Below, in pieces: positions 3,001 to 24,883 of a stretch of DNA of 36,639 nucleotides; the first letter of the stretch is position 1, and the number at the start of each line of letters is the position of its first letter. The DNA is from Acaryochloridaceae cyanobacterium RU_4_10. Its GTDB lineage: Bacteria > Cyanobacteriota > Cyanobacteriia > Thermosynechococcales > Thermosynechococcaceae. The notes beneath the pieces were generated by a model. The model was given only the letters and a program-made list of their open reading frames with translations, had not been told where the DNA came from and did not search any database. Location of the stretch: positions 1-36,639 of the forward strand of contig JAAURS010000004.1 of assembly GCA_012032135.1 (NCBI GenBank). Direction: 5' to 3'. The position numbers and the translations under genes are program-made.

Positions 3001-3226
3001 AGATTTTATGTATGCAGGTGTTGCCCAAGCCTATGTTTTGGATCCAGCAGTCCAAGATTTTATCCAACGCAGCAATCCTTGGGCCTTACGAGATATGTCA
3101 GAACGCTTGTTGGAAGCGCATCAACGAGGGTTGTGGAAAGAGGTTGGACCAGAGACGATCGAAACATTACGATCGCTGGTTCATGAAGCTGAAGGTACGA
3201 TCGAATCTGCTCAGTTTCGGACTTAA
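1..3226 (+). CDS. cobN: Cobaltochelatase CobN subunit-like protein, 5' end missing
   Basis: Large subunit of a CobN/magnesium-chelatase-H family enzyme, which binds the tetrapyrrole during ATP-driven metal insertion; CobN acts in cobalamin synthesis. The frame is open to the left edge, so the true start lies outside; about 1,070 codons are present against roughly 1,250-1,300 for the family. Visible landmarks are FYRAHYLSGNTAVID near the start, HVGKHGNLEWLPGKS in the middle, and near the C-terminus RHGYKGAFEMAATVDYLFAY, all of which fit CobN better than ChlH/BchH. Two compensating indels seem to lie at about 40-43 (one extra base, or two missing) and in the G run at about 79-84 (one G missing). 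The alternate frame between them gives EGRMAMRPYERYGG, a more protein-like linker into VGIIFYRAH. That repair is an inference. Confidence 0.88.
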   Translation, partial: SPQSVPRVGLYHLGRAHGHAPLREIWGVGIIFYRAHYLSGNTAVIDELCDALAERQLTPIPIFISSLKEPDVQAELIRYCRQGVKVLLNTTSFALASLETDSPKVDLWETLDVPVLQVILSGGTREQWEAGTQGLTPRDMAMNVALPEVDGRIITRAVSFKAVQAQNSQLQTDVVVYEPERSRIEFVADLATRWVKLRQTPACDRKIALILANYPNRDGRLANGVGLDTPASSLEILKALKAEGYEVGEIPKNSDALIRLLTAGITNDPEGWDLRSVRQSLSLQDYQTHFQTLPIAVQTGIQERWGSPQEEELFPIAGIQFGNVFVGIQPARGYDLDPTLNYHAPDLEPTHSYLAFYHWVNASFGAHAIVHVGKHGNLEWLPGKSIALSENCYPEAVLGAMPHFYPFIVNDPGEGSQAKRRSQAVILDHLTPPMTRAELYGSLHQLEGLIDEYYEAQTLDPARVTSIRDRLVRLIRQENLHKDLGIETELLDDGALAAVLTSADGYLCELKEAQIRDGLHVFGQCPEGGLLRDLTMAIARNPNANRLGLTRAIARDWHLDFDPLTANLGDTLGPNLHSNLQSCRIIGDAVEIIEAYGANLLDALIQGDEIVGIGEQTRQELGWVGERLLPSLRQTDREILNLLHGLDGRYISSGASGAPTRGRPEVLPTGRNFYSVDIRAIPTETAWDLGYKAAEVLVERYTQEHGEYPKTLGLSIWGTSTMRTGGDDLAEALALLGVQPVWDGVSRRVIDFEILPLSLLGRPRVDVTLRISGFFRDAFSNLIDLFDSAVNAIANLNEPADQNPLAAQVRQEKARWEAEGLGVEEAGVRSRYRIFGSKPSAYGAGLQGLIESQNWEGDADLARAYINWSAYAYTSNAEGKSAPEAFTQRLGAMQIVLQNQDNREHDLLDSDDYYQFQGGLSAAVKSVSGTLPEIYFGDHSRIAQPKVRKLTEEIARVYRARVVNPKWIAGVMRHGYKGAFEMAATVDYLFAYDATTHCVEDFMYAGVAQAYVLDPAVQDFIQRSNPWALRDMSERLLEAHQRGLWKEVGPETIETLRSLVHEAEGTIESAQFRT

Positions 3227-3290: not shown

Positions 3291-5218
3291 ATGAGGCAAT
3301 TATCTCGCGATACTATCATTGCAGCCTTCCGCGATCGCATCCAACAGGGCGATCGGCTGCGATTGTCTAAGGACGAACTAGATGGGCTCATTGAAGGGTT
3401 CATTGAGCAATTGCGCGGGGCGAATACAGAAAAGAAGATTAAAGCGCTTTGCGAAGCAGAAATTAAGCTACTGGAAGAGGGCTACCCACAGGCATCTGTC
3501 GCGAAGTATCTCACGGTCTACAGAAAAGCACTCAAGGTGGCGATCGAAGAAAATTCGCTGGCGTTAACCAAAAGCAATTCCCATCGGTTCATCCATCATC
3601 AACGCGTGACAGGTCTTCAGGAGAAACGTTTTGAGCATTGGGCATTGACCTATCTTAAATACACACCGGAAGTCTACGAGACCATCGACAAGCGATCGCA
3701 GCTTACGAATCGAGGAAAGCAGCTCAATCTTCGTCTAGTTCCGGTAGAACGCTATTTAGCACTTTTACAGAGCTTCCTCACAAAAAAGGATCTTATGAGG
3801 CACGATGGTTGGCAACAGCGATCGCGGGACTCACTGGACGACGCTTTGCGGAAGTGGTAGCGAAGGGCACGTTCTCCTTGGCAGAGCATCCCTATCTTCT
3901 GCACTTTGAGGGCCAACTCAAAACTAGAACGAGTCGATCGCAAGGATATGACATTGTTACGTTGATTCCGGCTCGTGAAGTATTGGAGGCCATTCAACGC
4001 CTGCGTAAATTGCCGGAGATTAAGGCGCTCGCTCGGTTGACGGGAAAAACGCTTTCTCACGAATTGAATCAATTTAATCAAAAACTCAATGCAATCGCTT
4101 CTAGGCCATTGATGCAGGTGGTGCCTCCACTGGAAGGAAAGAAAAGCGTTTCGGTTCATAATTTAAGAAGTTTGTATGGTGCGATCGCCGTCTATTTCTT
4201 CTGTCCCGAGCATCAGCATGAGTATGCATTCGTTCAACATTTTCTCGGTCATGTGCTAGACTCTCCAGCGACAGGCCACTACTTTCGCTTTTCTCTCTGC
4301 GATAGTCAAGGAAAAATGGTTCGGGATAAAGGGGTTTTATTGAAGCAGGTTGCACAATTACCTTTAGGAATAGATGAGGTTGTTTTAGAGGAGGGATCTG
4401 AGGTTGTGGCAGACTCTAAGCTGGCAGCGAGTCAGGGTAAACCAGAAAAGGCGATCGCGCGCTCCGACGATCTGCAATTGCCTAAAGAGTGGTTTTCCGA
4501 ACTGGATCGGCGGGTAGAGGTTTTGCGCTCAGAGTTTGAGGCACAGTTACAGGAAGTCCGTCAAGAATCCAATTCTGGTTGGTTTGTCAGACGAGTGGAA
4601 GCATTGGAAAAGGAAAATTTAACCCTTAGATTAGAGCGCGATCGAAGCATGGCCCAAACTGAGGGTAGCCAAAGTTCTCTTGAAAAGATAGGGCGGCTTG
4701 AAGCTGAAAAGGAGGTGTTAGCCGAACAACTGAAACTAGCTCAGGATAAGCTTGATACCTTTCGACAACTCCTCAATGGCAATGAAGCAACGAGCAGTTT
4801 TGTTGAAACAGATGCTCCAATAGAAATAGAAGCAGACGTAGATAAACCTCAAAGTGCGATTGTAGAAAAGGTTCCTTCCTTTGCGATTCCTATCCGTAGT
4901 TCTGAAATAAGAGGGGCGGTACCGAGACACGCAACTCGCGGTCCTAAGTCAGGCAAAGCCTTTCGTCGGGCTGAAGCGATCGTTCTTGCCATTAAAGATT
5001 GGAATCGACAATTTCCTGCGGAGTCGTTTGCCATTAATGCAGGGCTATTGGAAACCGTCTTCAGGGTGCATCGTCAGGCGGTCAAGGAGTTTTTTGATGC
5101 GTACCAAAATGAACTCTGGGATTATCACCAAGAAATTGGCGTAGAAAGCCCTCGATGGCACAATCGGGGTAAGGATACACTAAAGTTAAAGGAGTTTGTA
5201 AACCAACAACTTTCTTAG
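3291..5218 (+). CDS. Telomere resolvase (protelomerase) family protein, frame-disrupted at an A6 run
   Basis: Homologue of hairpin telomere resolvases (TelN, TelK, TelA, ResT), tyrosine-recombinase-like enzymes that cut a palindromic replicated telomere and reseal it into covalently closed hairpin ends. The start is ATG 3291, with GGAGA about 10 nt upstream. The first part (3291-3788) has the helical N-terminal region, including ASVAKYLTVYRKALKVAI. The frame then moves by -1 at AAAAAAG (3782-3788) and continues to 5218; joined, it is about 642 aa, close to TelN and TelK. Catalytic candidates are Arg in LTGRRFAEV (3839-3844), Lys in GQLKTR (3920), HNLR with Arg at 4166, LGH with His at 4250, and nucleophile Tyr in GHYFRF at 4280. 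Spacings R-K 26-27, K-R 82, R-H 28 and H-Y 10 fit the family. A coiled coil (about 4490-4780) and a basic helical C-terminal domain follow. A Xer-like recombinase is the main alternative. Confidence 0.78.
3782..3788 (+). other. A-AAA-AAG slippery heptamer at the resolvase frame break
   Basis: In the upstream frame the codons read aca aaa aag. The heptamer A-AAA-AAG is the classic -1 slippery site known from E. coli dnaX, and a -1 slip here leads exactly into the downstream catalytic frame (KK then GSYEARWLATAIAGLTGRR). I see no convincing Shine-Dalgarno stimulator just upstream and no strong stem-loop just downstream. One missing A (A7 read as A6) explains the break equally well, and similar breaks occur through the window, so I treat consensus error as more likely. 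Confidence 0.4.
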
Positions 5219-24744: not shown

Positions 24745-24883
24745 TCCAAAATCCCTTTTAACTCCAACATAAATCCTGGCAACACGACATCCGTTCGTTA
24801 ACTTTCAAAACCTGCTCATTTCATCCGAACCGCAAACGAGACTCTAAAATGAAAACATGCAAATCCGATCGCAGGAGTCATTC

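Follow-up and report, generated by a model that had tools for sequence, protein, structure and literature searches.

A telomere resolvase gene in chromosomal surroundings

The window, the whole 36,639-nucleotide stretch analysed here, comprises all of contig C254 of a 4.48-Mb draft genome in 442 contigs that is 77% complete (hereafter G000). A full-length homologue of the telomere resolvases (protelomerases) lies on its forward strand at 3291‒5218, and the catalytic domain of its product matches PF16684, the ResT/TelK catalytic domain (E = 2.4e-53 / 1.6e-52), with a score of 178 bits (about 180) against a cut-off of 27 bits. The features referred to below are as follows.

23‒3226, + strand: cobN (CobN/Mg-chelatase; PF02514, 1366 bits), cut by the contig start
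3291‒3788, + strand: resolvase N-terminal region (166 aa, frame 0), continuous with the intact N-terminus of the G002 and G001 homologues; pN 0.18 against pS 0.71 (compared with G002)
3783‒3790, + strand: frame change at AAAAAAGG, which is one base shorter than the DNA of the three relatives compared
3788‒5218, + strand: resolvase catalytic domain, coiled coil and C-terminal domain (-1 frame); PF16684, E = 1.6e-52
3839‒4282, + strand: catalytic residues Arg (RR) 3839, Lys 3920, His 4157, Arg 4166, His 4250 and nucleophile Tyr 4280 (family alignment with conservation counts; alignment with TelA 4dwp)
4478‒4790, + strand: predicted coiled coil, approximate limits (long helices 408‒508 in the G002 protein model, 63% identity)
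4949‒5215, + strand: conserved C-terminal helical domain, approximate limits (conserved columns W598, N599 and N652 of A1‒A3; high-confidence helices 583‒667 in the G002 model)
24857‒27514, + strand: leuS (leucyl-tRNA synthetase; Pfam tRNA-synt_1_2 and others), a chromosomal marker

The neighbours of the resolvase gene in the window are cobN, a KAP-like NTPase with TPR proteins, a DUF5724/DUF4132 gene, a phytochrome gene, ppx/gppA and leuS, and no phage or plasmid genes were recognised within the window. The gene thus sits in chromosomal surroundings. An earlier note on this DNA had placed the gene next to cobN, with leuS about 20 kb off and no phage genes, and the annotation agrees, with cobN ending at 3226 and leuS starting at 24857.

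Catalytic residues, domains and fold

The R-K-HxxR-H-Y catalytic set of the window resolvase is complete, with Arg184/185, Lys211, His290, Arg293, His321 and Tyr331, and nearly all of the 65 family proteins in the alignment keep it. The catalytic Tyr aligns with Tyr405 of TelA. Read across the frame change, the product comprises 642 aa, a size near that of TelN and TelK (about 640 aa). The identity of the gene, the full catalytic set (located at nucleotides 3839‒4280) and a length near that of TelN and TelK had all been proposed in the earlier note, and each is borne out. The N-terminal region, which it had described as resolvase-type, matches the intact N-terminus of orthologues. Of the coiled coil and basic C-terminal domain that it had added, the coiled coil is predicted, and the C-terminal domain is present as a conserved helical domain.

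A profile of twelve relatives matched TelA (8e-17) and TelK (6e-16) in the PDB, and ResT weakly (0.07). For fold comparison, the AlphaFold2 model is that of the closest orthologue, from G002, which is 63% identical to the window protein (BLAST, 496 aligned residues; mean pLDDT of the model 76.9). Solved protelomerases top the Foldseek ranking of this G002 model, with TelA at 1.4e-10 (TM 0.68 by target), TelK at 8e-10 and ResT at 3e-4. The matches with E < 1e-3 are protelomerases only, namely seven TelA/TelK entries and ResT. The best integrase match has E = 1e-2, and the first non-protelomerase is the Tn1549 integrase, so that both TelA and TelK rank above every integrase in the structural comparison that the earlier note had suggested. 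In its companion check by HMM search, PF16684 was matched, and no integrase family was reported for the window resolvase in Pfam (E up to 0.001) or NCBIfam (E up to 0.01). Ordinary tyrosine recombinases of the Xer, phage or integron type have the catalytic superfamily in common with this protein, and the Tn1549 integrase leads the non-protelomerase folds, but such an identity has a negligible chance and is refuted by the Pfam, NCBIfam, profile and fold comparisons, in which no integrase family appears at these thresholds and TelA, TelK and ResT lead by both fold and sequence. From PF16684, the solved-structure matches and the catalytic set, the window gene is a true member of the telomere resolvase family.

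Agrobacterium TelA (PDB 4dwp, 4e0z, 4f43) is the best sequence and fold match, and it resembles the window protein in catalytic domain, fold and the residue order Arg-Lys-His/Tyr-Arg-His-Tyr. However, the identity is about 20%, the window protein extends into a coiled coil and another C-terminal domain, and scores of 25‒53 bits fall far below the NCBI TelA equivalog cut-off of 800. TelK of the Klebsiella phage (matched as 2v6e) and TelN of the E. coli phage N15 are alike in size and catalytic domain; unlike these, the window gene has no phage genes nearby. Borrelia ResT is alike in catalytic domain (8vs5) and differs in its weak sequence similarity and its domain layout.

A frame change within a gene under selection

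The earlier note had described a single gene at 3291‒5218. The homologue does span this interval, but it is not one open reading frame, since its 1928 nt are no multiple of three. The reading switches from frame 0, which runs to about 3788, to the -1 frame at CACAAAAAAGGATCT (3783‒3790). Intact relatives read ...AAAAAGGGT... or ...AAAAAAAGGGA... at this site, i.e. they carry one extra G or A. The dnaX-like heptamer A AAA AAG (around 3782‒3788) could point to programmed -1 frameshifting, but this was rejected as the main reading, since the relatives are in frame there.

Substitutions between the window and G002 (pN 0.20, pS 0.75) show an equal pattern on the two sides of the break, so that the frame either persisted until recently or persists still. 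Both halves of the resolvase are under strong purifying selection. Two other genes on the same contig are also split: the DUF5724/DUF4132 gene (9157‒9753 / 9585‒14117) by a frame change, and a di-haem oxidoreductase gene (32102‒31260 / 31182‒30661) likewise. Since these genes are split too, the frame change in the resolvase gene is most likely an indel error of the draft assembly.

Patchy distribution in the family and the phylum

The same-genus relatives of the window genome are Thermosynechococcaceae metagenome assemblies. In G001, G002, G009 and G010, the resolvase gene also lies amid chromosomal genes (ThiF, SNF2 helicase, NAPRTase, mutS2, mfd), and its chromosomal site differs in each related Thermosynechococcaceae genome; the synteny with cobN is not conserved among the related genomes. 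The distribution is patchy, with a match in 23 of 58 near relatives and in 15 of the 386 genomes of a phylum sample. Six genomes of the window's family keep a full-length gene. G001 carries a truncated copy beside intact copies, and its copy on C79 is without the catalytic Lys and His. S. elongatus, with its circular genome, was considered as a counterexample and set aside, since the weak PF16684 match in G039 (30.5 bits, 416 aa), probably from this species, is without the catalytic Lys and the first His.

Searching IMG/VR with the clade A alignment (see below) gave no relatives, and only Vibrio phages matched, distantly, in a phage collection. We therefore rejected a phage origin of the N15 group, as the window has no phage structural or replication genes and IMG/VR no relative.

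Palindromic ends on replicons of relatives

Of 76 examined ends of contigs or replicons with a resolvase gene, 13 are exact palindromes, as against 0 of 88 control ends (Fisher p = 2.5e-5, the ends being not fully independent of one another). Inside chromosomes, palindromes of comparable strength occur about once per 100 kb.

The replicon pGLO7428.02, labelled linear, has identical terminal inverted repeats of 1340 bp that finish on the outside in a perfect 36-bp palindrome, TACATTGTTATATTGGAATTCCAATATAACAATGTA. In Chondrocystis plasmid 2, the inverted ends measure at least 4 kb and a 189-bp palindrome closes them; Chondrocystis plasmid 3 ends in a 93-bp palindrome. The Leptolyngbya boryana plasmids show inverted terminal similarity. 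For the 554-kb plasmid of this species, the records of two strains disagree on topology, one giving it as linear and the other as circular (AP018205.1, NZ_CP092421.1); the plasmid ends are inverted over about 444 bp at 84% identity. No terminal repeat was found at the ends of the Cy782202 record; linear plasmids of Cyanothece PCC 7822 have been published (PMC4320622).

Replicon unnamed1 of Gloeocapsopsis dulcis, whose record is labelled circular, contains a palindrome of two 1742-bp arms (NZ_CP119970.1, about 209319‒212802), with the same centre as pGLO7428.02, TTATATTGGAATTCCAATATAA, and lying about 8 kb from the resolvase gene. We consider that unnamed1 is probably a linear replicon that was mis-joined as circular. 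More broadly, some cyanobacterial replicons labelled circular are probably linear, their palindromes looking like fused ends.

Perfect palindromic ends are also present on draft resolvase contigs of Crocosphaera MO_167.B6, Stenomitos ULC18, Oculatella, Chroococcus FPU101 and genome G129. The end of the resolvase contig C53 of G129, read from the centre outwards, is AAATTAACGGAC. It matches the motif AAATTAACRGAC of the linear plasmids pNPM8‒10 of Nostoc sp. N6, for which hairpin ends were inferred from sequencing reads (PMC5987646, 2018). The resolvase on C53 belongs to a clade other than that of the window's enzyme, and the Nostoc paper (PMC5987646) names no resolvase.

Several of these genomes show further peculiarities. 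Contig C59 of G129 (18151 bp) carries an identical 38-bp palindrome, with the centre TTCTCATGAGAA, at both ends, and it appears to be a complete small linear replicon; its two adjacent genes encode a very divergent resolvase pair. On a 6752-bp contig of Chroococcus sp. FPU101, resolvases of clades A and B occur together, and the 45-bp palindrome at its end has T at the centre. In Stenomitos frigidus ULC18, an open frame of 2820 aa contains a resolvase-like segment near its C-terminal part.

The plasmid protelomerases of cyanobacteria (pGLO7428.02, Cy782202, Leptolyngbya boryana pLBX/pLBY and Chondrocystis p2/p3) share the family with the window protein, and the first two also share clade A. 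They are plasmid-borne, several of them with terminal repeats or palindromes, whereas the window's gene is chromosomal and no telomere was found for it.

Enzyme clades and candidate telomere sites

A tree of 61 proteins resolves two large cyanobacterial clades, A and B. Clade A (28 rows, SH-aLRT 100) contains the window gene, near the Cyanothece/Gloeothece PCC 7822 enzymes. Clade A also includes the resolvases of Gloeocapsa 7428, G. dulcis, Crocosphaera, Stenomitos, ES-bin-22 and Oculatella, and these adjoin TTGGAATTCCAA or TTGGTTAACCAA palindromes at ends or fused ends, with a half-site in ES-bin-22. The clade A sites are of even length with the centre TTGGAATTCCAA, replaced by TTGGTTAACCAA in the deep branch of Oculatella, i.e. 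TTGG-AATT/TTAA-CCAA. The clade B sites are of odd length, TATC-W-GATA (G046, G053 and Chondrocystis p2). The site of Chondrocystis p3 is ATATC-T-GATAT, and that of Chroococcus, on the contig with resolvases of both clades, is GTTC-T-GAAC.

Within 3.0 Mb of sequence, palindromes with arms of at least 14 around the clade A core were confined to such ends or fused ends, with one exception inside G003:C111. In this last case, a 32-bp perfect palindrome with the clade A core, ACAATAGGGCTTGGTTAACCAAGCCCTATTGT, lies inside a 13-kb contig and may be a telomere junction or a terminator; the G003 genome carries a clade A resolvase. Enzyme clade and site type go together, in a correlation that is specific, and the match between the Nostoc N6 hairpin motif and the end of G129:C53 lends independent support.

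Cyanobacterial proteins of this family are annotated 'protelomerase family protein' or 'telomere resolvase'. The earlier note held that the cyanobacterial members are known as annotations only. This is partly out of date, since hairpin plasmids were described in Nostoc N6 (PMC5987646), in the paper that names no resolvase, and cyanobacteria were listed, without data, as carriers of hairpin telomeres in a 2013 paper on TelA (PMC3558466). In the open-licence literature, we found no paper tying cyanobacterial resolvases to telomere sites. The annotated but hitherto unassigned enzyme family is now tied to concrete DNA targets, with TTGG-AATT/TTAA-CCAA (clade A) and TATC-W-GATA (clade B) as candidate telomere sites.

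Search for a telomere in the window's own genome

In the 77%-complete draft G000, eight TTGGWWWWCCAA sites are present, and none of them extends into a longer palindrome. The Gloeocapsa site gave 24 matches in G000 against 21 in the reversed control, with no true palindrome, and a search of G000 with TTGGSWWSCCAA likewise gave no true palindrome. Terminal palindromes were found at 0 of 18 ends of resolvase contigs in the window's family and at 0 of 68 other ends of G000 and G001. No telomere was found in G000 (77% complete), G001 or G002, and the resolvase contigs there are not close to any palindrome. A 30-bp palindrome in G001:C6 near the truncated copy was considered as a telomere and rejected, having no counterpart in G000. 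The linear replicon with hairpin telomeres that the earlier note had envisaged is therefore supported for cyanobacterial relatives, through their palindromic ends, but not by a telomere in the window's own draft or its close relatives.

A candidate role in trans and its alternatives

The family, the catalytic set, the fold, the selection on the reading frame and the link of clade A to palindromic replicon ends were computed directly. For the window organism, we infer the activity, the site and a linear replicon. We favour, with some reserve, the reading that this chromosomal clade A telomere resolvase most likely serves the ends of a linear accessory replicon in trans. Two resolvase subunits would bind the palindrome of the replicated telomere, with the clade A centre TTGG-4 bp-CCAA, as TelA and TelK do. 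Both strands would then be cleaved by Tyr331 a few bases off the centre, folded back and rejoined as hairpins. Given its clade A descent, the window enzyme is predicted to cleave a TTGG-NNNN-CCAA palindrome, with hairpins like those of TelA as the product. The ends of such an accessory replicon would be the natural substrate, and the action in trans would resemble that of Agrobacterium telA on the circular chromosome; in Agrobacterium biovar 1, TelA is encoded there and acts on the linear replicon (PMC13293297). If the chromosomal copies of the family are active, linear replicons would be expected in thermosynechococcal relatives, where none are recorded.

The main alternative, unlikely but of real weight, is that the gene is a relic: a clade A gene from a linear plasmid that was stranded in the chromosome with no telomere left, its frame change being real decay. 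The lack of a detected telomere in the draft genomes of the window's family is consistent with this, as are the truncated G001 copy, the C79 copy without catalytic Lys and His, and the frameshift in the window copy. The copies are not syntenic, and varied chromosomal places would be expected of a relic too. On the other hand, strong purifying selection on both halves and the full-length gene kept in six family genomes argue against decay, and the two further split genes on the contig point to assembly errors.

It is improbable that the enzyme was domesticated for another chromosomal service, e.g. single-strand annealing or repair, without telomere making. TelA and ResT do anneal single strands (PMC7861564), and the chromosomal location throughout the family and the failure to find a telomere would fit such a role. 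However, the whole tyrosine-recombinase catalytic set is kept, which would be needless for annealing alone, and the patchy (23/58, 15/386) and non-syntenic occurrence is unlike that of a housekeeping gene.

Possible linear main chromosomes

A further alternative to service in trans is that the window's species has a linear main chromosome with hairpin ends. Two other cyanobacteria, G053 and G046, look so, but they belong to clade B and the window to clade A, and with no telomere in G000, G001 or G002 and no resolvase contig near a palindrome there, we consider this very improbable. By the signs computed here, G053 and G046 look like linear main chromosomes. We regard it as possible, though somewhat doubtful, that these resolvases maintain linear main chromosomes with hairpin ends in some cyanobacteria, in which case the chromosomal gene of the window's family would be a further such system. 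This raises the question whether oxygenic phototrophs can have linear main chromosomes; we found no report of a hairpin-ended cyanobacterial main chromosome in the open-licence literature.

G046:C1, a single contig of 4.68 Mb, contains a perfect 6.16-kb palindrome of two 3079-bp arms centred at 2,113,190, and each arm carries a complete resolvase gene of 876 aa. The palindrome lies 45% of the way round from dnaA, roughly opposite to it, and the GC skew is too noisy to place the end exactly. Such a palindrome is as expected of two telomeres that would have been joined in assembly.

G053 is a single contig of 5,458,034 bp (5.46 Mb), and its right end begins with GATAATA, a clade B half-site. The left end overlaps exactly by 77 bp with the stretch 4967‒5043 from the right end. 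Since an exact 77-bp overlap fits a k-mer overlap at a collapsed repeat, this implies a terminal repeat of 5,043 bp (~5 kb). dnaA is located at 2,633,418, i.e. at 48% of the contig, and the GC skew is mostly negative to the left of the middle and mostly positive to its right.
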